A stretch of DNA of 64,000 bases, from positions 2,594,001-2,658,000 of the forward strand of contig NZ_CP071794.1 of the NCBI RefSeq assembly GCF_017498565.1, in the 5' to 3' direction. The notes beneath the pieces were generated by a model. The model saw nothing but the letters and a program-made list of their open reading frames with translations, did no database searches and was not told the origin of the DNA. This stretch comes from Parasphingorhabdus cellanae. GTDB taxonomy: Bacteria; Pseudomonadota; Alphaproteobacteria; Sphingomonadales; Sphingomonadaceae. Shown here one piece after another: positions 47,841 through 59,875 of the stretch (position 1 is the first letter of the stretch; the number at the start of each line of letters is the position of its first letter). Position numbers and translations under genes: made by a program.

Positions 47841-50800
47841 TTAGAATTCGTAACGCACGCCTAGAACAATCCGCCACAATGATGAGCTGGTTGTGACATT
47901 TTCTTCATCATCAGGATTGAAACTACTAATGATGTATTGGCCTGTCGTTGCATCGAAGCCGCCACCAGCAACTTCCACCCGGTCTGAACGATCACGAAAG
48001 GTGTTGGCGCTGCTATCAAAAATATTCAACAGATTGTCGATATCAGCGAAGATTTGAATTTTATCTTCAACACCGAACAAACGACCGGGACCAGGGATTT
48101 CCTGACTGATACGTAGGTCAAGGTCATAGGACCAGTCGTTGCGGCAGGTGTTTCTGCTAATCGAGCTTCCGAGGAAGTTGCGGGCACAACCCAAGCCGTT
48201 TGCATAATCAACCAGAGCTTGAACGGCAGCCGGATCAGATGCTGCTGACAGATTAGGATCGTCGATGCCTGTTGGAATGTAAAGCAGCGCATTGTCTGAT
48301 CCTGAACTGCTGTCCGCAAATACACCCTGATTGTCGAATGTCAGACTGTAAGGGCGACCTGACTGTGCAATGAAGCTAAATCCTAACCGAGTTGCAAAAT
48401 CATCAAAGAAATATTCTTTGAAGTCGAGCTGCGCAGTGATCCGGTGCCGGGTTTCGAAATTTGACGTTGAAACTGCAGGATTTTGGCGATCAAACGCGGC
48501 CGTGCTATCAAAGCTGGATGTAGAGGTAGAACTCGCAAGGTTCCGTCGGTTGTTTGAATCAACAAAAGCATAACCAAGGTTGATTTTGGTCGACCCCGCT
48601 TCAGTAAAGACGCCGCCCAAGAAACGTTTGCCCAGACTGAGACCAAATGCGTGGCTGCTATAGCCCGCTGCATTGGTGAACTGTATTTCGTCGTCCCGGC
48701 GGGTTGAGAAACACTCAGCTGTCACACCGGTATAGGTTGGCGGGGTTCCGCCTGTTCCAGAAAGAACAGCATTACATCCGGCGGCATCTGGATCAATTGC
48801 ACGCAGAATCGGACGACCGTCCACTGTAAAGCCATTCACACCCAATGCTGGATTTGGAACCTGGGAGAGATCGACAAAGTTATAAGGATTACGGAACCGG
48901 CTATAGATATAGTCGGCCTTGATATTCCAGTTGTCAAAAAACCCGTCATTGCCGGTGAAGTTCAAAACACTCTCAAAGCCAAGATTGGCACGTACCACGG
49001 TCGCGATTTTAAGATCAGGGTCGGTCGATTGTGTATCAGCCAAACCGGCAGATGATGTGGCAGATGCTGCTTCCACAACACAGGCGGGGATACCGGAAAA
49101 GGTTCCACCTGGGGTTACGTCGATCTGTCCATTGGCATCACGCAATGGATCGCAGCCGCTGACCAAGCTGTTGGCTGCCGCGGTAGAGAAGCCATTATTT
49201 GAGAAAGCGTTTGAGAACCAAACAGTGGGATCGCCGCCGGAGTAGATACCTACACCGCCAGTCAGCACAGAATTACTGAGAAATCCGTCATTGTCGAAAC
49301 CATAGTTGAACGCAACGCGTGGCTGGAAAACTGGATCCAGACGGCTGAATGAATTGCGGTTGGTGAAGCCGTAACGAGACAAAAAGTTGGGATTGGCACG
49401 TGGTGCATCGCCATTGTACAAATCGGTTCTGATACCAATCGTAACAGACAGATTATCGTTTACACGCCAATCATCCTGCGCATAAAATGACCAGATCGTC
49501 CGTGACCAATCAGCCGCTGCTTCGTTAATATCGCCGGAAGGGGATGCAGCGATAACCGCTCCACCAATGTTTCCGCTCGCAGCATCACTTGGACTGGAAA
49601 AAGCTGATGTAAAGCCAGTCCCACCTGATAACAGGCCAGCACGCAAGTCATCAACATTCTGGAAGAATAGAGTGCCTGTTGCGTTGATCGCAAAGAGATT
49701 GAAAATATCGAGCTTGTTATATTCCGTGCCAATTTTGATATCATGATCGCCAGCGGAATAGTTAGCCTGAAATTTCACCAGATCAACTTGCCGGTCCAAC
49801 TGGTTAGCCGAACGGAAAATTCCCGGACCGGCAATAACTGCACCATCTACACCTGAACCATTGCCAGCAATGACACCACCGCCAAGATCTGTGCTATTGT
49901 CGATGCCGACAACAATGCGGTTGATTGGATTATCTGATTGTGCTTCGCCTCCGCCGACAGGACCTTGAAGATCACTCACTTCAGAGCGAGACACACGCAA
50001 CTCAGTGGAAAGGTTATCTGTCCATTGCGAATAGAGGCGAGCCGAGTAATAATCCGATTCTGTACCTTCCAATTCGAAACTATTTACACCAGTAATTTCA
50101 CTGTCGCGCTGATCAAAGTCATCTTCTTCTACCCGACCTTCTTTAAGGTTCTGATATGTAACTTCAAGACGATGATCATCATTGATCAACCAGTCCAATC
50201 GTCCAAAAAAGCGTCGGTCGGTTTGGGGAAGTGTGCGAGCAATTTCGCCCGTATCAATGCCATAAACAGTGTTCAGCACATCTGAAATTTCATCGAATTG
50301 CGCTTGATTGACACCAGCTGCCTCATTCGCAAATCCTGCTCCTGCCGGGCCGTTGTCTTGACTATTGCCGAGATCGGTTTCTTCATAAGCAAAGAAGAAG
50401 AACAGCTTGTCTTTAATGATTGGGCCAGAGAGCGTTGCGCCCCAGCGATAGCGATCAAAAGGAGACTGTGTAATGTTTTGGCCATCCACTGTGTCGCCCG
50501 TCAGGCCATCGCCCGTATAAGTAAAAAAGGCCGTGCCGTGAAAGTCATTCTCACCGGATTTTGTGACAGTGTTAATTGCACAGCCGCTGAATTGACCATA
50601 CTCAACATCAAAAGGCGCAAATTCAACAGATGTTTCGCGGATTGCATCAAAAGGAATCGGCAATGAATTACGCGCGGCAAAGGGAGTGTTGTTGAGGCCA
50701 AAAGAATCTGATTGAGATATGCCATCGACAGTGAAGCTATTCGACCGAGTGTTTCCGCCCAAACAGGACACTTCGTCTACTTCATTGCTCCGATCCAGCG

Positions 50801-51302
50801 ATACGAGCGGATTGAATTTTATTATATCGCGAACATCGCGGGTAACTGAAGGGAATCCTTCTAAGGCTTCCAACCCAAACGCTTGTCCAGGACCCACAGC
50901 AAGTTGAGATACACCAGCACGTGTACCCGTAACGACGATTACATTTTCTTCAGAACCAGATGCAAGCGTAAAGGTATAGTCAGTGTTACCTTGAAGGTTC
51001 AAAAACTGGTTCTCAACCGTTTGGCCTTCGAAGCCCGGTGCAGTTGCCGTAATTGTGTAAGGGCCACCGGTGACAAGCGTTTCAGCGCGAAACAAGCCGT
51101 TGGATCCAGTAGAAATTGTTCTTTTCTGACCGGTTCGAGTATCGGTGATTGTGACAGTAGCGCCGGAAATGGCGGCACCACTTTCATCAGCAACTTTACC
51201 TTCGACGCCAGATGTAATCTGCTGCGCTGCGGCTGGAGTGGCCATCAGGCCGGCTGTGGAAAGGCTGACAACGCTGGCTGCCAATAGATATTTCATTTTC
51301 AT
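47841..51302 (-). CDS. TonB-dependent receptor with CarboxypepD-regulatory-like N-terminal domain
   Basis: A protein of about 1153 residues. The start is taken at the ATG at 51302, with GGGGA upstream; an in-frame ATG lies at 51317. The signal peptide ends near AAAQQI. Residues 33-110 form a carboxypeptidase-regulatory-like beta-sandwich (VEGKVADESGAAISGATVTI), followed by a plug (about 130-260) and a beta-barrel that ends in a C-terminal Phe (RIVLGVRYEF). This architecture matches Oar/SusC-like receptors of sphingomonads that import oligosaccharides or peptides. No substrate-binding SusD partner is beside it. Confidence 0.93.
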   Translation of the reverse strand: MKMKYLLAASVVSLSTAGLMATPAAAQQITSGVEGKVADESGAAISGATVTITDTRTGQKRTISTGSNGLFRAETLVTGGPYTITATAPGFEGQTVENQFLNLQGNTDYTFTLASGSEENVIVVTGTRAGVSQLAVGPGQAFGLEALEGFPSVTRDVRDIIKFNPLVSLDRSNEVDEVSCLGGNTRSNSFTVDGISQSDSFGLNNTPFAARNSLPIPFDAIRETSVEFAPFDVEYGQFSGCAINTVTKSGENDFHGTAFFTYTGDGLTGDTVDGQNITQSPFDRYRWGATLSGPIIKDKLFFFFAYEETDLGNSQDNGPAGAGFANEAAGVNQAQFDEISDVLNTVYGIDTGEIARTLPQTDRRFFGRLDWLINDDHRLEVTYQNLKEGRVEEDDFDQRDSEITGVNSFELEGTESDYYSARLYSQWTDNLSTELRVSRSEVSDLQGPVGGGEAQSDNPINRIVVGIDNSTDLGGGVIAGNGSGVDGAVIAGPGIFRSANQLDRQVDLVKFQANYSAGDHDIKIGTEYNKLDIFNLFAINATGTLFFQNVDDLRAGLLSGGTGFTSAFSSPSDAASGNIGGAVIAASPSGDINEAAADWSRTIWSFYAQDDWRVNDNLSVTIGIRTDLYNGDAPRANPNFLSRYGFTNRNSFSRLDPVFQPRVAFNYGFDNDGFLSNSVLTGGVGIYSGGDPTVWFSNAFSNNGFSTAAANSLVSGCDPLRDANGQIDVTPGGTFSGIPACVVEAASATSSAGLADTQSTDPDLKIATVVRANLGFESVLNFTGNDGFFDNWNIKADYIYSRFRNPYNFVDLSQVPNPALGVNGFTVDGRPILRAIDPDAAGCNAVLSGTGGTPPTYTGVTAECFSTRRDDEIQFTNAAGYSSHAFGLSLGKRFLGGVFTEAGSTKINLGYAFVDSNNRRNLASSTSTSSFDSTAAFDRQNPAVSTSNFETRHRITAQLDFKEYFFDDFATRLGFSFIAQSGRPYSLTFDNQGVFADSSSGSDNALLYIPTGIDDPNLSAASDPAAVQALVDYANGLGCARNFLGSSISRNTCRNDWSYDLDLRISQEIPGPGRLFGVEDKIQIFADIDNLLNIFDSSANTFRDRSDRVEVAGGGFDATTGQYIISSFNPDDEENVTTSSSLWRIVLGVRYEF

Positions 51303-51533
51303 GTTAAGGTTCCCCATTTGCGGTCTTTTACAGTGATGGACATGATCGGCGACGCGGTGAACGTCCTGAACGCCATGTAATCGAACTGCTCCCTAGGGGC
51401 GTAAAATGACAGTTTTGTCTCAATCGCAACGACTTTGTTTTGCGCTGCAGCATTTAATTTTTATCCACAGTTTATCAAGGGCTTGGAAAATCGGTTGATA
51501 AATGGCCGAGTTTCACTGCGGAATGAAGCTATC

Positions 51534-52154
51534 TTATTGAATTAAAGTATTTATTGATTCCAAAATAGCGGAAAAATCGCTCGTAACGACTGTTTTTGAC
51601 TGTTGCGAATTTATCACGATATCTGCATGCATCTGTGAAGGCGCGACAAATTTTTCGTGCATCGGATCGACCTGACTGCGAAAAACTTCTCGGACCGAGT
51701 CGGCCGTGCGCCCGCGTTCCCTGACATCACGTTCTAGGCGTCGTTCAAATCGGATGGCGCTGTCACATCGCACAAAAACAGATAGATCAAATAGCTGCCG
51801 CAAGGGAGCGTGGTGCAGGATCAATATGCCGTCGACCAATATGATCTGCCGTGGCTCGGTAAGCTCCGTTTCCATCTTGGGCATATGCGTTGGAAAATCA
51901 TAAAGCGGCCGGTCAATTGATTGACCCTGTTTTAGTAAAGATAGTTGCGCGCGCATCTTGTCAAAATCAACCGCATCGGGGTGATCGAAATTCGGACCTC
52001 CCTTACCTTCCGGGGCATCGCCATAACCAAAAAAATAGTCATCTTGTGGCAGGATGACGCATTGATCAGCGCCCAATGTCCCATGGATATAAGCCGCCAG
52101 TGTCGATTTTCCTGAGCAGCTGCCGCCACTAATCCCCACAACTTTTGGACTCAT
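51534..52154 (-). CDS. Uridine kinase-like P-loop kinase
   Basis: A 206-residue kinase: Walker A GISGGSCSGKSTL, the acidic-Tyr motif ILPQDDYFFG typical of uridine/phosphoribulokinase-type enzymes, NFDHPDAVDFDKM and the LID region ERRLERDVRERGR. It probably phosphorylates uridine or a related nucleoside. Its start overlaps the end of the oxygenase gene by 4 nt (52151-52154), which implies translational coupling. The last of four genes in an operon with a nucleoside transporter. Confidence 0.9.
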   Translation of the reverse strand: MSPKVVGISGGSCSGKSTLAAYIHGTLGADQCVILPQDDYFFGYGDAPEGKGGPNFDHPDAVDFDKMRAQLSLLKQGQSIDRPLYDFPTHMPKMETELTEPRQIILVDGILILHHAPLRQLFDLSVFVRCDSAIRFERRLERDVRERGRTADSVREVFRSQVDPMHEKFVAPSQMHADIVINSQQSKTVVTSDFSAILESINTLIQ

Positions 52155-53095
52155 ACCAATCCAATTTCGCGAAGACGTTCCATCAGATAATCATGGGCCG
52201 TAATCGGCTCTGGATAGAGATTGGGATGATCCTCATCTATGGATTGCGGCAAAGTCTCGATTAAATAGTCTGGCCGGAAGTGAAGGAAAAATGGCATCGA
52301 ATAGCGCGAATGTCCGCGCCGTTCTGGTGGCGGATTAACTACCCGGTGTGTCGTCGATGGCAAGCGGTTGTTGGTCAGTCGTTGCAGCATATCGCCAATA
52401 TTGACGGCGAGCTCACCTGGTTTCGGAGTCACAGGGCGCCAATTGCCTTGTTTGTCCAGCAGCTCAAGCCCCGCTTCTTCTGCTCCGATAAGCAGGGTAA
52501 TGGTGTTGATATCTTCATGCGCTGCGGCGCGCACGGCAGGTGAATCAGCTGGTACCGGCGGATAATGGATGAGACGTAATATACTGTTACCGTCGCGCAC
52601 TGTGTCGTCGAAGAAATTGGGCTCCAATCCCAGGAAGCGTGCAATCCCTTCCAATATGCGTTGTCCCGCCTTGTCAAAAGCAGCGAACAGCTCAAGATAG
52701 CATTCGCGAAAGCCGTCCACTTCTTCCGGCCAAATATTGTCACTCATAAACGGTTCAAACGCATGTCCGCTCGGCAACTGCCGACCGATATGCCAGAACT
52801 CCTTGAGGTCGTGTATGTTGGAATCTTTAGCCGCCTCTGTACCGAAAGGCGTGTAGCCGCGGGCACCGCCGCCGCCGGGAACATAATATTTGCGTTTCAC
52901 ACCATCCGGCAACGCGAAAAACGCGCGGGACATGTGCTCGGCTTTTGCGATCAATTCATCCGGAATGCCGTGATCTGAAATAATGGCAAAGCCCCAGTCG
53001 GAAAAAGACTGGCCGATGCGTGATGAAAAAGCATCCTTGTCTTTGTCAGACAAAGCAAGAGAGATAGACGATAATGTATCATTGGTATGCGACAT
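52151..53095 (-). CDS. IPNS-family 2-oxoglutarate/Fe(II)-dependent oxygenase
   Basis: A 314-residue enzyme with the DIOX_N domain (about 8-125, GFAIISDHGIPDEL) and a 2OG-FeII domain. The iron ligands are HxD in AAHEDINTITLL and His in LPSTTHRVVNP, and the 2-oxoglutarate Arg is in SRYSMPFFLHF. The gene lies between a CNT nucleoside transporter and a uridine kinase-like gene. Some family members hydroxylate pyrimidines or pyrimidine nucleosides (thymine 7-hydroxylase in fungi), so a nucleoside or base substrate is a reasonable inference. Confidence 0.9.
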   Translation of the reverse strand: MSHTNDTLSSISLALSDKDKDAFSSRIGQSFSDWGFAIISDHGIPDELIAKAEHMSRAFFALPDGVKRKYYVPGGGGARGYTPFGTEAAKDSNIHDLKEFWHIGRQLPSGHAFEPFMSDNIWPEEVDGFRECYLELFAAFDKAGQRILEGIARFLGLEPNFFDDTVRDGNSILRLIHYPPVPADSPAVRAAAHEDINTITLLIGAEEAGLELLDKQGNWRPVTPKPGELAVNIGDMLQRLTNNRLPSTTHRVVNPPPERRGHSRYSMPFFLHFRPDYLIETLPQSIDEDHPNLYPEPITAHDYLMERLREIGLV

Positions 53096-53138
53096 GCTTC
53101 TATGATGCTCTGCTTATCCGTTTTGTCAATCTATCCAC

Positions 53139-54374
53139 TCAACCCAGGGATAATAATAATCCGGCCAAGGCTGCACTCATTAGATTGGCGAGCGATCCGG
53201 CGGCTAGTGCTCTCAGACCAAGGCGGGCAATTACAGGGCGCTGATTGGGTGCCAGTCCGCCGGTAACGGCCAGTTGAATAGCAATCGACAGAAAGTTAGC
53301 GAATCCGCATAAAGCAAAAGTCACGATCGCAACGGTAGTGGGCGACAATGTATCACCCATATTGCCCAGATCGCTAAAAGCCACAAATTCGTTCAAGACC
53401 ACCTTGGTTCCGAACAGGCCGCCGGCTGCAAAAGCCTCTTCCCAAGGTACGCCCAGCAGGAACATGATGGGCGCAAAGACATAGCCGATAATCTGCTGGA
53501 AGCTAAGGTTGGGTTGACCAAACCAGCCTCCGACGCCGCCCAATATACCGTTGGCCAAGGCCACAAGCGCGACAAAGGCGAGCACCATGGCACCAACAGC
53601 TACGGCAATTTTAACACCGGTTTGCGCGCCCATAGACGCGGCCATAATGATATTTGCCGGTTTCTCTTCCTCATAGTCCACGGCAACCACCAGTTCTTCC
53701 GGTGCTTCGGCATCAGGATCATCAGGCATGATAATTTTTGCCATCAAGATACCGCCAGGCGCCGACATAAAAGCGGCGGCGAGAAGATAATCAATCCGTA
53801 TGCCCATCGAGGCATATGCGGCCAATATGGTGCCAGCCACCCCGGCCATGCCGACACTCATTACCGTAAACAGCTGAGACTCAGTCAACTTTGCTAGATA
53901 AGGACGAATAACTAGAGGTGATTCCGATTGGCCAACGAAAATATTCGCTGCGGCACAAAGAGATTCAACTTTCGATATTCCAGTGACTTTCTGGATTCCA
54001 CCACCCACCCATTTGATGATGAATTGCATCACTCCGAGATAATAGAGAATTGAAATCAAAGCCGAGAAAAAGATGATGACGGGCAGTGCGGCGATGGCAA
54101 AGCTGTTTCCGCCCATGTCAGGGTTTGCGAGCGGGCCAAAAATGAAATTCGTGCCGTCTGCTGCATATCCAAGGAGGTTCGAAACGCCAGTAGACATGGC
54201 TTGGATGATATCTTTACCCGCTGGCACATAAAGTACGAGCACAGCAATCCCGGCCTGAAGTGCAAAGGCTGCCGAGACCACACGAAGACGCACTTTGCGG
54301 CGCCCGGTTGAAAGGGAAAAAGCGAGTAGAAGGATTACCGCCATTCCGGCAATGCTTGTCAGAATCGAGGTCAT
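53139..54374 (-). CDS. NupC-family concentrative nucleoside transporter
   Basis: A 411-residue CNT-family symporter with about eight membrane segments. Signature stretches are FVGQSESPLVIRPYL, GVAGTILAAYASMGI, FMSAPGGILMAK and FALCGFANFLSIAIQLAVTGG near the end. Length and motifs are normal for the Na+- or H+-coupled nucleoside transporters. It lies 22 nt downstream of the LOG gene and 43 nt upstream of the oxygenase gene. Confidence 0.95.
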   Translation of the reverse strand: MTSILTSIAGMAVILLLAFSLSTGRRKVRLRVVSAAFALQAGIAVLVLYVPAGKDIIQAMSTGVSNLLGYAADGTNFIFGPLANPDMGGNSFAIAALPVIIFFSALISILYYLGVMQFIIKWVGGGIQKVTGISKVESLCAAANIFVGQSESPLVIRPYLAKLTESQLFTVMSVGMAGVAGTILAAYASMGIRIDYLLAAAFMSAPGGILMAKIIMPDDPDAEAPEELVVAVDYEEEKPANIIMAASMGAQTGVKIAVAVGAMVLAFVALVALANGILGGVGGWFGQPNLSFQQIIGYVFAPIMFLLGVPWEEAFAAGGLFGTKVVLNEFVAFSDLGNMGDTLSPTTVAIVTFALCGFANFLSIAIQLAVTGGLAPNQRPVIARLGLRALAAGSLANLMSAALAGLLLSLG

Positions 54375-54396
54375 TAGCGGGTTGTCCCGGTTGATT

Positions 54397-54965
54397 TTAC
54401 CACGTCACTTCCCCATTCGAACCTGTGTATGCAGATGTCAGCTGATCCAATATTTCATTGATATCATCGCTCAATATCAACTGTTCGCGGCGCGCTGAGG
54501 ACATAAACCCATGGCCCGCGACATTGTCCAAAAACATTGTGAGAGAATCCCAGTAGCCATTGACGTTGAGCAGCCCGATCGGCTTGCCGTGATATCCCAG
54601 TGCTTTCCAGGTCCATGCTTCAAACAGTTCATCCAACGTCCCGATTCCGCCAGGTATGGCAACAAAACCGTCGGTAAGTTCCGTCATTTTTGCTTTGCGC
54701 TCATGCATGGACGTAACGACGTGCAGCTCAGTCAGCCCGGTATGAGCGACCTCATGATCTTTCAGCATTTCAGGAATAACGCCGTAAACTTTCCCGCCAC
54801 CATCAAGCACTGCATCGGCAATAATACCCATTAGGCCGAGACGTCCGCCGCCAAAGACCAGATCGATGTTCCGCTGAGCCATGATCTGGCCCAATTTTTT
54901 TGCTGTCTCGGCGAAAACGGGGTCCCCCCAGCGCTCGCGCCACAATAAACCGCTAGTCTTCGCAC
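54397..54965 (-). pseudogene. LOG-family (TIGR00730) nucleotide phosphoribohydrolase-like gene, broken by a 1-nt deletion
   Basis: From a GTG at 54965 (AGGGGA upstream) the frame reads VRRLAVYCGASAGG, the correct LOG N terminus. It then leaves the family frame in a run of six G (plus-strand C 54924-54929). From there the downstream frame continues WGDPVFAETAKKLGQ, with FGGGRLGLMG, HERKAKM and PGGIGTLDELFEAWTW. Seven G would restore an intact protein of about 190 residues. LOG enzymes release bases from nucleoside monophosphates. Either a real frameshift, a phase-variable tract or a sequencing error. An ATG at 54945 would give only a truncated 182-residue protein lacking the first strand. Confidence 0.85.
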
Positions 54966-55122: not shown

Positions 55123-55770
55123 ATGAAGATGACAGCAAACTCAGAAACAAAGCACATCCCACGCGGCCTCTTCGTCATTTGCGTTCTCTATGGCGGAATG
55201 GCTAGTCTGGCAGGAATTTTGGGCAACAAACTAGTGGCGCTGGGGCCATTGGCGGTTGAAGCAGGCATATTCGCTTTCATCCTGCTGGTGGTGCTGGCAG
55301 GAGCGGTGGCCGAGGTTTATGGACGTGCCACGGGCAATCGAATAGTTGTGTTCGGATTCGTTCCGATCATCGTGTCGATGATATTAATCCAGCTAGTTCT
55401 GGCCTTGCCGCCAGCGTCATTCTGGGAAGAAGAAAAGCGCGTTGCCTTTGACATCATTCTCAATCAATCGACCCGGCTGATGTTTGCAGGGATTATCGCC
55501 TACGGCACATCCCAATTGCTCAATGTTTTCATCATCACCCGGCTGAAAGGAGAAGGCGGCAAGCTGTTATGGCTGCGAAGCATGATTGCCGGGGTTGTTA
55601 GCCAAGCGGTTGATACCGTTATTTTTATCACCATCGCTTTTTATGGAGTGGCGCCATTGATGAAAATCATGCCGGGGCAACTGTTGGCAAAAGTCATATT
55701 ATCTGCTGTGTTCGTGCCGCCGCTGGTCTACGGCATTGTACGATTGGCCAAGCGGCTTGATGCGGAGTGA
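55123..55770 (+). CDS. Queuosine precursor transporter (VUT/YhhQ family)
   Basis: A 215-residue membrane protein with six segments (about 18-40, 45-68, 73-95, 115-135, 150-172, 180-205). Motifs such as ILGNKLV, GAVAEVYGR, LNVFIITRLK and SQAVDTVIFI match the VUT family that imports preQ0/preQ1 for tRNA modification. ATG 55129 is an alternative start. The lipoprotein gene downstream starts within its stop codon. Confidence 0.9.
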   Translation: MKMTANSETKHIPRGLFVICVLYGGMASLAGILGNKLVALGPLAVEAGIFAFILLVVLAGAVAEVYGRATGNRIVVFGFVPIIVSMILIQLVLALPPASFWEEEKRVAFDIILNQSTRLMFAGIIAYGTSQLLNVFIITRLKGEGGKLLWLRSMIAGVVSQAVDTVIFITIAFYGVAPLMKIMPGQLLAKVILSAVFVPPLVYGIVRLAKRLDAE

Positions 55771-56540
55771 ATTTCGGCAAGCTCTGCCTGTTCGGGTTGC
55801 TGACGGTAATCACTGCATGCTCGGCCCCGGCTGAAATACCAGAGCCATCCCCGGGCACGAATGTCGTTGCGGTAATAGGTGCGGTCCATGGACAACATAG
55901 ACGCAGCGAGAGTTATTCACTGACGGTATTGCGCGCTGCGATTACCAAGTTTGATCCTGAGATTATCATGGTTGAACTGCCGACTGAGCGTTTTTCCAAG
56001 GCATCAGCTAACTACCAACAGTTTGGTGAAGTGCGGGAAAGTCGCGCTGATGATTTTCCGGAACTGATTGATGTCGTTTTCCCGCTGCGTGAGGCGTTGG
56101 ATTTTGAAATGGTCCCAGTTGCAGCATGGACACAGAACATCGCGGATGATCGGCGTGCGACTTTGGCTCGGGTGAAACAAGATCCGTCTCGAGCGAAAGA
56201 TTGGGCGGCGCATCAAGCTGCTATTACTACCTACAACCAAGCCGTCCGCGGGCGTTCAGATGACCCGTTGTTCATTCACAGTCAGGCCTATGACAACGCC
56301 GTAAAAGCGCGGCAGGAGAGTTATGAAAAGCTGTTCGGTGATGATCTGGGAGCAGGCGGCTGGCAGACTATCAACGCGGCCCATTTTCAGAAAGTCGCTG
56401 CGGCTCTGGATGATGTAAAAGGTCAGGAGAAGCGGATTTTGATCCTCTATGGTGCTTGGCACAAATATTGGTTTCTGGAGCAATTGGAGACACGCGACGA
56501 TATTCAGTTGATCAATGCTGCCGAGCTGTTTTCTGGCTAA
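55767..56540 (+). CDS. TraB/TIKI-like predicted lipoprotein
   Basis: A 257-residue protein starting at a GTG that overlaps the upstream stop. Lipoprotein signal MNFGKLCLFGLLTVITACSA. The mature part has VVAVIGAVHGQHRRSESYSL near the start, FDPEIIMVELPTERF, and RILILYGAWHKYWFLEQL near the end. The GxxH and GxxHxxWF pattern and the ELP motif resemble the TraB/TIKI/EreA-ChaN group of metal-dependent hydrolases, but the match is partial. Cotranscribed with the transporter; a role in queuosine salvage is a guess only. Confidence 0.72.
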   Translation: MNFGKLCLFGLLTVITACSAPAEIPEPSPGTNVVAVIGAVHGQHRRSESYSLTVLRAAITKFDPEIIMVELPTERFSKASANYQQFGEVRESRADDFPELIDVVFPLREALDFEMVPVAAWTQNIADDRRATLARVKQDPSRAKDWAAHQAAITTYNQAVRGRSDDPLFIHSQAYDNAVKARQESYEKLFGDDLGAGGWQTINAAHFQKVAAALDDVKGQEKRILILYGAWHKYWFLEQLETRDDIQLINAAELFSG

Positions 56541-57145
56541 ATTCTGGGATTTTTCTGGTTTTCCGTCGCCAATATTTGCGGTGTGTCGATATCCAGCAAG
56601 CTGCCGTCGGGCGCTGCAACACGATATGCTGTTTGTAACAGTTTTCTGGCACCGTGATCCCCCTGTAAATCCTGAAGGGTCCCAAATTCGCTAGATGGGA
56701 AAATAGCAGGTGGCATCGCTTTATCGCCTTCGCCTGATGCAATGATCTTTTGGTGGTCATGATCGTCAAAAGCCCGAGACAGCTTCTGGATATGCTGATG
56801 AACGATATAGGGCATGTCAGCCAGACAGACGTATAGCGCGCTGGCACCGTATTTCATTGCGTGCTGTGCTGCGCACCGCACTGACGCCGACTGCCCCTCT
56901 GCGGCATGTTCGTTGAGAATGATATCATAGCCCATTGCTCTCCAACCAATGGCGCAGGGATGGCCTGGATCAGATGCGATGATGGTGCGGCGATCAAAAG
57001 CTATTCGGGTTAAGGTGTCAGCGGCATGGAGACCCAGCATCCTACCATGCAGCAATGCGGTCAGCTTGTCTTGATCACCAAATCTGCGCGATTGGCCGGC
57101 AGCGAGCACGGCCAACATGATCTCATTGTCTGCTGCTTCGCTCAA
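56537..57145 (-). CDS. MocA-like molybdopterin nucleotidyltransferase
   Basis: A 202-residue NTP-transferase: MLAVLAAGQSRRFGDQDKLTALLHGR (GxG loop and Lys), EGQSASVRCAAQHA and LADMPYIVHQH (Asp for Mg). This is the MobA/MocA family that attaches CMP or GMP to molybdopterin. In xanthine-oxidase-family enzymes the cofactor is the cytosine dinucleotide made by MocA, so a MocA role fits its place at the end of the oxidoreductase operon. It overlaps the cytochrome gene by 4 nt. Confidence 0.9.
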   Translation of the reverse strand: MSEAADNEIMLAVLAAGQSRRFGDQDKLTALLHGRMLGLHAADTLTRIAFDRRTIIASDPGHPCAIGWRAMGYDIILNEHAAEGQSASVRCAAQHAMKYGASALYVCLADMPYIVHQHIQKLSRAFDDHDHQKIIASGEGDKAMPPAIFPSSEFGTLQDLQGDHGARKLLQTAYRVAAPDGSLLDIDTPQILATENQKNPRI

Positions 57146-57600
57146 TTAGCGGAAACATCTTCAATATAGGCGATAATGGCTTCGCGCCGTCCGGCGTCGG
57201 TGATAGCACCGGCCATCATCGTGGTGCCGGGAACCCTGGCGGCAGGATTTGCGATGTAGCTGTCCAATTCTTCTTTGGTCCAAGTGATCCCTGAAGATGC
57301 CAGCGCATCGGAATAGGCGAAACCATCGACACTGCCAGCAGCTTGACCGATAATGCCATGGAGATTCGGGCCGACCTTATTGGCACCGCCCTCGTCGATA
57401 CCGTGGCAAGCGAGACAGGAATTGAAGGCCGCTTTACCAGAAGCGATCAAGCCGCTGTCCGGTGCGCCAACGGGATCGGCTGCTGCACCGGGTTCGCGAA
57501 CAACAATCTGTTCAGTGGGTCCCGGCGCGGGGTCGGTCCCGCAAGCGGCTAGCGCCATTACCAAAACCGGAGCGGATGCGCGAAGCACTGCTTTCATCAT
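57142..57600 (-). CDS. Cytochrome c lipoprotein
   Basis: A 152-residue c-type cytochrome with a lipoprotein signal (MMKAVLRASAPVLVMALAACGT) and heme motif CLACH (Cys62-Cys65-His66); the axial Met lies in TTMMAGAI. It probably accepts electrons from the 2Fe-2S subunit of the oxidoreductase encoded upstream and passes them to the respiratory chain. The first oxidoreductase locus at 8.7 kb lacks such a gene. Confidence 0.93.
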   Translation of the reverse strand: MMKAVLRASAPVLVMALAACGTDPAPGPTEQIVVREPGAAADPVGAPDSGLIASGKAAFNSCLACHGIDEGGANKVGPNLHGIIGQAAGSVDGFAYSDALASSGITWTKEELDSYIANPAARVPGTTMMAGAITDAGRREAIIAYIEDVSAN

Positions 57601-57631
57601 TTTTTCCTTACAAATGCCGGCACGAACGGCC

Positions 57632-59875
57632 TTAAGCGAAATCCACTTTGCTCAACGGCAGCTCTCGAACGCGGTTGCCGGTGGCGGCAAAAATGGCGTT
57701 GGTTACGGCCGGGGCGAGCGGCGGCAGTCCGGGTTCTCCGGCTCCGCCCAAACGCTTGTGGTCGCCGTTGATAATTTCCACATCCACTTCCGGCATCTCG
57801 TTGATGCGCAAGATCGGATAATCATGGAAATTGCTCTGTTGAACAGCGCCATCCTTGACCGAGATTTCGCCGTAAAGCGTGGCGGTCAGGCCATAGGCTA
57901 CACTGCTTTCCATCTGGGCGGCAAAACCGTCGGGATTAACAGCAAAACCAGGGTCAGCCGCGACGTAGATTTTTGTCACCTTGGGTTTCTTGCCGGTCAT
58001 ATCGACTTCGGCCACTTCCGCCACAATGGTGCCAAAAGACGGGACAAAGGCAATGCCGCGTCCGTGGCCTTCGGGTAGTGGTGTGTCCCAACCGGCCATT
58101 TCCGCGGCCTTGTCCAGAACCGCCAGATGGCGCGCTGACCCCGCGAGCAATTCGCGGCGATAGGCATAGCCATCCTTGCCTGCTGCATGGGCTAGTTCGT
58201 CGACAAAGCTCTCGATGAAATAACCATGTTGGCTATGATCCACCGACCGCCATGGACCGAAGCGCAAATGGGTTGGCACATCAATTTTACGGATCTTGTG
58301 ATTGGCGATATTATAGTAAGGCACAGTCGGCGCTTCTTGCGGATCGAACAGGTGGGTATGGATATTGCTCCAGCTCACTGCCTTGCCATTTTCGTCCAGA
58401 CCGGCCTGGAACCGGCTCGTGGCCGACGGGCGATAATGATCCTGCATCGTATCTTCTTCGCGCGACCAGATCATCTTCACCGGATATTGCGTTGCCTTGG
58501 CAATGCGTGTGGCCATGATAATCGCGTCATTTTCCGACCGCCGACCGAACCCGCCGCCAAGATAAGCGTTGTGATAGGTTACAGCATCCATATCAATGCC
58601 CAGCGTGTCCGCCGCCGCTTTGCGGGCCATCAGCGGTGCTTGGTGACCAGACCAGACGTCGCATTTCCCGTCCCGCACCCAGGCGGTACAGTTCATTGGT
58701 TCCATTGCGGCATGGGCGAGGAAGGGTACTTTATATTCCGCTTCGACTTTCGTCGCCGCACCCGCAAAAGCCTCCGTGACGTCGCCTTGCTCGGTCTCGA
58801 CATCGCCGCCATCATCGCCGGCCTCATCCAGCACCGTTGCGTAGCGCGCAAACAGGGCATCCTGATTGAGCGCGTCACCCTCGGTCTTGGAATATTTTGC
58901 GTCGATCGTGCCAAGCGCCTGCTGCGCTTGCCAATACCCATCGGCAACCACAGCGATAAAATCACCCATGTTCAGGATTTGCAAAACGCCGGGCATGGTT
59001 TTGGCGGTCTCGACGTTCATCGATTCAACCGTTGCGCCGACGACCGGTGCTGCCTTTACCGCAGCATATTTCATGCCGGGCAGGTCCGCATCAATGCCAA
59101 ATAGTGCTGTGCCATCGGACTTGTCTGGAATATCATGGCGGGCCATGGCCTTGCCCATCAGCTTATAGTCTTTGGGCGATTTCAGCTTGGGCTTGTTCGG
59201 AAGGCCCTGTTCGGCTGCAGCGGCGGCAAAATCTGCAAATGGCGCTGATTTACTGCTCTTGTCGTGCAGGATCATGCTGTTTTCGGCGCGCAATTCACCG
59301 GCGGGAACATTCCATTCCTCTGCCGCTGCCGCGATCAGCATTTCCTTGGCAGCTGCGCCCGCCACCCGCATCGCGCGCTGACCGGTTCCGCGAACCGAGA
59401 AGCTGCCGCCGGTAATTTGCAGATTCATGGCGGTTGCCAGTTGCAAGAAGGTACCGCCAACGGTTGGCTCCAATATGGCTGGGACTTCCAAATTGGGAGC
59501 GAGGAATTCGCGGCCAATATCATGGGAAACATATTTCTTGTCGGCCGGAGCTTCGAGGATTTTGACCTTGCTCCAGTCCGCATCCAGCTCGTCGGCCAGC
59601 ATTTGCGCCAGTGATGTGAAAACGCCCTGACCCATTTCGACATGGGGAATGATGGCCGTGACAATATTGTCTTTATCAATCTTAACCCAGGCGTTGATGA
59701 GTTGTTCGCCGTCTCTTTTGGCGAGCATCGGGCTGAGCCGCTCCACCGGGTTGTCGGGGCGTACCGCGACACCGACAACCAATGCGCCGCCAGCAACCAC
59801 ACCGGCACCGATGAAGGCGCGGCGAGTCCATTTGCCTTTTTTGGGTGCTGTTTTAGAAGACTTGGTATCCGCCAT
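57632..59875 (-). CDS. Molybdopterin-binding subunit of isoquinoline 1-oxidoreductase-type enzyme, copy 2
   Basis: A 747-residue xanthine-oxidase-family large subunit. A Tat-like signal ([20 protein letters not shown]) starts at residue 16. Motifs: [28 protein letters not shown] N-terminal domain, [33 protein letters not shown] and the catalytic-Glu motif [20 protein letters not shown]. About 33% similar by eye to the 8679-11075 protein, so the two are separate enzymes rather than recent duplicates. Second gene of an operon with 2Fe-2S, cytochrome c and MocA genes. Confidence 0.93.

Follow-up and report, generated by a model that had tools for sequence, protein, structure and literature searches.

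Within the window analysed here, a stretch of 64,000 nucleotides (nt) from the complete 3.78-Mb genome of the Sphingomonadaceae strain Parasphingorhabdus cellanae, a gene cluster was found that combines a putative Fe(II)/2-oxoglutarate (2OG) oxygenase (OXY) with a NupC-type concentrative nucleoside transporter (CNT), a uridine kinase-like nucleoside kinase (KIN) and a LOG-like nucleotide phosphoribohydrolase (LOG). Tentatively, and with slightly less than even confidence, we read this locus as a nucleoside uptake and salvage module in which OXY oxidises a nucleoside or base in the course of salvage. CNT would import nucleosides, KIN would form the 5'-monophosphate and LOG, where intact, would split the latter into base and ribose 5-phosphate, while OXY, a putative distant relative of thymine 7-hydroxylase with a pocket of its own, would oxidise the nucleoside or the free base. 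Its target would probably be a minor or modified nucleoside or base, which could then enter the common pool. The oxidation might take place either on the nucleoside before the kinase step or on the base after LOG action; an earlier note on this DNA had placed it before phosphorylation, an order that loses its priority as base oxidation after kinase and LOG fits equally. The note's description of the cluster itself, with four adjacent minus-strand genes in the order LOG, CNT, OXY and KIN, 22 nt between LOG and CNT, 43 nt between CNT and OXY and a 4-nt overlap of OXY and KIN (52151-52154), was confirmed by open reading frame (ORF) coordinates together with Pfam and NCBIfam profiles.

Among 119 Sphingomonadaceae genomes, drawn evenly, OXY is present in 106, CNT in 84 and the VUT-family transporter gene encoded divergently from LOG (VUT) in 88, the latter two totals depending on the exclusion of CNT rows near 35-37% and VUT rows near 30-35% identity as other paralogues. 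OXY and CNT occur together in 82 genomes and lie within 6 kb of each other in 45 of these, compared to about 0.3 expected for random positions, the genomes being related and thus not representing 45 independent events. The same distance between OXY and VUT is found in 42 genomes, and CNT and VUT, jointly present in 82 of the 84 genomes with CNT, are within 6 kb in 64. Fisher's test on co-occurrence, with kinship ignored, gives 2e-5 for OXY-CNT, 1.6e-7 for OXY-VUT and 1.6e-19 for CNT-VUT. OXY is encoded away from an adjoining CNT-VUT pair in 22 genomes; hence, from the linkage counts, CNT and VUT form a stable core, with OXY as a frequent third member. Directly upstream of OXY and on the same strand, CNT is found in 75 of 80 named loci, which were picked as those most similar to the window OXY and not at random, in 34 of the 100 loci L115-L214 and in 9 of the 16 loci L240-L255, the CNT-OXY gap being at most 184 nt in all 118 such loci (median 19 nt). 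Within 6 kb of OXY, the 80 named loci also hold VUT (70 loci), LOG (35), an Oar-like outer-membrane receptor (35), a second receptor type (33), a PfkB kinase (20), AMP nucleosidase (15), KIN (14) and 5'-nucleotidase (14). Three locus forms can be distinguished, a Parasphingorhabdus type (VUT / LOG-CNT-OXY-KIN-receptor), a Sphingomonas type (VUT / PfkB-LOG-CNT-OXY) and an Erythrobacteraceae type (VUT / CNT-OXY-receptor) with no kinase or LOG adjoining, so that the kinase appears to be exchangeable and kinase and LOG both dispensable. The nearest named relatives of OXY are from Sphingorhabdus and Parasphingorhabdus, and in one Sphingomonadaceae clade OXY adjoins HerA and HtrA genes instead.

The OXY-CNT link recurs outside the Sphingomonadaceae. 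Searching for OXY gave matches in 17 of 289 genomes of the class and in 52 of 397 genomes of the phylum, the window's kin included. One family, here termed Rheinheimera-like after its nearest named proteins (from Rheinheimera, Alkalimonas, Arsukibacterium and Alishewanella), has OXY in 17 of 98 genomes, with CNT directly upstream of OXY in 10 of these and a uridine kinase gene preceding CNT in nine (one locus, L247, ends inside CNT). Gene order is receptor-KIN-CNT-OXY, as opposed to CNT-OXY-KIN-receptor in the window; the kinase of one of these loci (L139) scores above both uridine kinase cut-offs. An Oar-like receptor homologue is near OXY in 8 of 16 loci of this family and VUT in none of the 16. 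In loci L249-L252, OXY has a gene resembling 5'-nucleotidase next to it (25-26% identical to the query, with Pfam confirmation in the case of L250), and in L253 genes for a Bmp-type substrate-binding protein, an ABC ATPase and two permeases directly precede OXY, while in the remaining two of the 17 Rheinheimera-like genomes a thioesterase gene and nothing nucleoside-related lies by OXY. The order LOG-OXY-MFS occurs in L159, and in a compact cluster at L148:6178-8944 a 47% OXY paralogue, which carries Gln at the position of H102, is preceded by genes for a nucleoside hydrolase and a PfkB kinase. The best-scoring models are of the uridine and pyrimidine types for this hydrolase and ribokinase for this kinase, with every score below its cut-off. 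L064, labelled Caulobacteraceae, has the arrangement VUT-CNT-OXY, but the tree places its OXY together with rows from Sphingomonadaceae. One group outside the Sphingomonadaceae has OXY beside phosphoglucomutase and triosephosphate isomerase. The oxygenase-nucleoside link put forward in the earlier note is hence borne out with respect to uptake, given the OXY-CNT operons in Sphingomonadaceae and Rheinheimera-like genomes and the Bmp, LOG, 5'-nucleotidase and nucleoside hydrolase neighbours in single lineages, while its uridine kinase part proves narrow, such a kinase being linked to OXY in 14 of the 80 named loci and in nine of the 17 Rheinheimera-like genomes. As a test fixed beforehand, the neighbourhood survey cuts both ways, with linkage conserved in two lineages and homologues lying away from nucleoside genes in many loci.

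A tree was calculated from 126 thinned rows of 196, with three of the four rows at contig ends (L065, L066, L091, L101) set to linked by hand and L101 staying unlinked. On this tree, the label "CNT-linked" changes at least six times, compared to a mean of 41 in shuffles, and the Rheinheimera-like linked rows group with the unlinked members of their own family, apart from the Sphingomonadaceae. Forcing all 55 linked rows into one clade gave a p value in the approximately unbiased test (p-AU) of 8e-07, a result that also punishes losses inside the Sphingomonadaceae. A narrower constraint holding the Rheinheimera-like linked rows with the Sphingomonadaceae clade was likewise rejected (p-AU 0.01), on 122 of the 126 rows (four long rows dropped) and with both groups named after the tree had been seen. 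Two origins of the OXY-CNT link would fit best, and one old origin followed by repeated loss is a less likely course that the label count would still allow.

From its domain matches (PF14226, 95.6 bits, 4e-27, cut-off 27.3; PF03171, 82 bits, 4e-23, cut-off 23), OXY is assigned to the DIOX_N/2OG-FeII_Oxy (IPNS-type) superfamily. Alignment to PDB chains indicates H193, D195 and H250 as Fe ligands and R264, S266 and R174 on the 2OG side, with H193, D195, H250 and R264 invariant in 180 of 180 aligned rows and S266 in 179. The closest PDB chain, 3OOX, is a full-length homologue (4.7e-112) annotated as putative 2OG-Fe(II) oxygenase, which we take to be from Caulobacter. An excerpt of PMC10467617 lists it among structures with undefined function. 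When the PDB is searched with an OXY profile built from 25 chosen sequences, the second match after 3oox is the fungal thymine dioxygenase (190.7 bits, 4e-55), closely followed by 3on7 (183.3 bits, undefined function) and 9ovh (182.5 bits, labelled ethylene/succinate-forming enzyme). The kinship of OXY to thymine dioxygenase is thus suggestive and not strong, because a single-sequence search puts 9ovh, 6jyv and 3on7 first. Thymine 7-hydroxylase belongs to the fungal thymidine salvage route, for which we know of no CNT linkage. According to an excerpt of PMC4787775, this enzyme binds 2OG via R190, Y194, R286 and S288 and its substrate via R190, F292, Y217, N87, E122 and N294, and on thymine the N294A mutation had no effect and N87A and E122A mild ones. 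In the alignment with PDB 5C3P, superfamily and Fe ligands are shared, and R190, Y194, R286, S288 and F292 correspond to R174, Y178, R264, S266 and F270 of OXY; two of the six thymine-contacting residues are hence kept (R190 and the stacking Phe, F292), whereas four are changed (N87 to A78, E122 to H102, Y217 to I196 and N294 to H272). Because H102, I196, F270 and H272 are nearly invariant in CNT-linked and unlinked rows alike, most genomes probably share the same or a similar OXY substrate, the binding of which probably differs from that of thymine in the fungal enzyme.

The same residues bear on an explanation in which OXY acts, like the fungal enzyme, on a free pyrimidine base after the glycosidic cut. 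Profile similarity, the retained Fe and 2OG ligands, the stacking Phe and the base-freeing enzymes beside OXY or its paralogue (LOG in L159, nucleoside hydrolase in L148) are in line with it, but with four substrate contacts replaced, and with a gene for the next fungal step found nowhere among the Pfam-scanned locus genes (the genome was not searched for it), we consider it unlikely. Filing OXY as a thymine 7-hydroxylase was rejected outright, as four of the six thymine-contacting residues differ. The pyrimidine idea of the earlier note is met half-way by these comparisons, the thymine 7-hydroxylase relation agreeing with it and the changes in most thymine-contacting residues opposing it. Less probable again is hydroxylation at C1' or C2' of a (deoxy)nucleoside sugar, by which OXY would itself free the base or convert a deoxynucleoside to the ribonucleoside. 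This would suit the Erythrobacteraceae core of merely VUT, CNT, OXY and receptor, without kinase or LOG beside. Halogenases of the AdaV kind usually lack the Asp of the Fe site, which OXY keeps (D195). AdaV itself, a dAMP C2' halogenase and thus acting on a nucleic-acid building block (excerpt of PMC11186838), is a distant match in the same superfamily, but its similarity is weak (1e-9), and among the literature matches listed there is no cloned bacterial nucleoside 1'- or 2'-hydroxylase.

CNT exceeds the cut-off of TIGR00804 (463.7 versus 442 bits), matches the NupC family protein of 4pb1/3tij (1.5e-126) and has the motifs GQ-E-P, NEFVA and FAN aligned with 3tij (vcCNT-like). KIN matches PF00485 and NF004018 (193.3 bits, cut-off 180) and stays below the cut-off of TIGR00235 (175.8 versus 220.3 bits). 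Salvage by NupC/CNT plus uridine kinase uses the same families as CNT and KIN, but the locus differs from it by also containing OXY, LOG and VUT. LOG matches PF03641 and TIGR00730 (169.6 bits, cut-off 96.35), whereas its score with the cytokinin-type model NF058542 (136.7 bits, the first residues of the translation being out of frame) is below the cut-off of 300, as is that of an open LOG relative in L045 (147.2 bits). A LOG-like gene is hence present as the earlier note had stated, but not as an intact frame: from 54965 to 54397 (569 nt) there is no single reading frame, the frame starting with GTG at 54965 and the remaining frame parting at a G-run (54929-54924), a stretch that is open in 14 of 14 nearest named loci (L031-L044). 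Either a base-calling error or a recent mutation could account for this break. A second frame break in a related pathway is present in the same genome, where AMP nucleosidase (L258, C1 ~2977979) lies in two frames, and both breaks are possibly indel errors in the assembly.

Profile searches of the genome found only TrpD for PF00591, two genes for PF01048 (a weak methylthioadenosine-nucleosidase-like one below cut-offs and the AMP nucleosidase split over two frames) and no gene for PF01156, and thus no thymidine-phosphorylase- or IunH-type enzyme. For this reason, kinase plus LOG is the likely glycosidic route for splitting imported nucleosides in this strain. In two of six scanned CNT loci free of OXY (L221, L223), thymidine phosphorylase precedes CNT.

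VUT matches PF02592 and TIGR00697 (102.2 bits, cut-off 50.95), a family annotated as queuosine precursor transporter, and scores below cut-off with PRK11212 (YhhQ-type; 35 versus 252 bits). Accordingly annotated, and found in 82 of the 84 genomes with CNT, in 64 of them no more than 6 kb away from it, VUT might point to a module handling queuosine or another 7-deazaguanine nucleoside, with VUT moving the base and OXY removing the side chain by oxidative N-dealkylation, which would make OXY the aerobic equivalent of the lyase QueL. Queuine can indeed be salvaged by way of nucleoside hydrolases or lyases, and salvage with QueK, QueL and QPTR has a VUT/COG1738-family transporter and nucleoside genes in common with the locus (excerpt of PMC11130926). 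Nevertheless, we regard this explanation as very improbable, since the genome encodes QueC, for de novo synthesis, and TGT, both far from the locus, as well as a second VUT paralogue (C1:479626-480132, about 35% alike to the locus VUT), no riboswitch was found at 47-58 kb of the window, and OXY has no VUT partner in the Rheinheimera-like loci. A QueL-type radical SAM gene was not seen among the genes scanned at the locus, and no genome-wide search for QueK/QueL linkage was made. In its pure form, the queuosine reading is weakened by QueC and TGT, the second VUT gene and the missing riboswitch.

Several observations weigh against OXY acting in nucleoside salvage. Of the 82 Sphingomonadaceae genomes holding both genes, 37 have OXY apart from CNT, 24 of the 106 OXY genomes are without such a CNT, and CNT is near OXY in none of 22 loci from other alphaproteobacterial families (21 of 26 genomes) and none of 9 loci from three further families outside the class (9 of 12 genomes). 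KIN and LOG are confined to certain lineages, LOG has a broken frame in the assembly, and the single-sequence search prefers 9ovh, 6jyv and 3on7 over thymine dioxygenase. The partners do not agree on one base, as uridine kinase and thymidine phosphorylase suggest pyrimidines but AMP nucleosidase and the Bmp/PnrA type purines. In addition, linked and unlinked OXY have almost identical pockets, so that the substrate need not arrive through CNT; Ala occupies position 78 in 102 of 105 linked rows, while the 75 unlinked rows have Ala there in 51 and Gln in 22 cases, the rows L065, L066, L091 and L101 being counted as unlinked though their contigs end inside CNT. In the main rival explanation, which we judge to be rather unlikely, OXY would be a housekeeping oxygenase in its own right, whose substrate has nothing to do with nucleosides, the CNT adjacency being an old synteny accident kept in two lineages. 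That OXY is commoner than CNT (106 versus 84 of 119 genomes), stands alone in other families and keeps a near-constant pocket whether linked or not is in its favour, but the tight same-strand CNT-OXY coupling, the recurrence of the link in another lineage with different gene order and the several unlike nucleoside-related neighbours are at odds with it and speak for the salvage module.

Positions and strands of the locus genes are compiled in Table 1, two conserved flanks, the receptor downstream and the divergent VUT gene upstream, being additions to what the earlier note had described.

Table 1. Genes of the locus, with positions in the window and the basis of their assignment.
Feature	Position	Strand	Basis
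Oar-like outer-membrane receptor, carboxypeptidase-regulatory-like domain, 1158 aa (amino acids)	47841..51317	-	PF25183, PF13620
KIN, uridine kinase-like nucleoside kinase, 206 aa	51534..52154	-	PF00485, NF004018
OXY, Fe(II)/2-oxoglutarate oxygenase, 314 aa	52151..53095	-	ORF list, Pfam, PDB-chain alignment, conservation
CNT, NupC-type concentrative nucleoside transporter, 411 aa	53139..54374	-	TIGR00804, 4pb1/3tij match
LOG-like nucleotide phosphoribohydrolase gene, broken frame	54397..54965	-	PF03641, TIGR00730
VUT-family transporter, divergent from LOG	55123..55770	+	PF02592, TIGR00697
257-aa protein	55767..56540	+	No Pfam match; ORF list

The receptor gene starts 216 nt downstream of KIN and may or may not be in the same transcript. 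Its product is 55-64% identical in most close relatives (L031-L043), where OXY and CNT mostly reach 80-96%, and 90-92% identical in L038 and L039, a pattern that points to rapid divergence or to exchange of the receptor. For VUT, identity drops to about 58% in L039 and L041, compared to 91-97% in L031-L038, with neighbours alike, and a displacement of the VUT gene is possible in the former two. The ORF of the 257-aa protein, kept beside VUT in the nearest relatives only, overlaps the 3' end of the VUT gene by 4 nt. Beyond it, on the minus strand (56537-59875), are a MobA-like nucleoside triphosphate transferase (Pfam) and, as read from the ORF list, a c-type cytochrome-like and a 747-aa molybdoprotein-like ORF, all outside the conserved locus except in close kin. 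A scan for promoters and terminators gave 8 promoter-like sites versus 4.2 (standard deviation 1.9) in shuffles and 4 terminator-like sites versus 4.5, and was not used.

Going beyond the single locus, OXY might represent an as yet unassigned family of bacterial nucleoside or nucleobase oxygenases in salvage, an extension that we consider doubtful at present. Its members would provide a 2OG-driven aerobic step repairing or opening imported nucleosides that kinases and phosphorylases cannot use, would have been recruited more than once beside unrelated importers (CNT and the Bmp-type ABC system) and would have VUT as base-handling partner in Sphingomonadaceae. Among the literature matches listed, there is no description of the OXY family or of the operon. 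To our knowledge, oxidative nucleoside salvage is otherwise known only from fungi (thymine 7-hydroxylase). If the salvage reading is true, the locus would represent a bacterial oxidative branch of nucleoside salvage and VUT genes next to CNT may be mislabelled as "queuosine precursor transporter", while an oxygenase family present in 106 of the 119 sampled Sphingomonadaceae genomes, with a solved but functionless structure, would gain a function.

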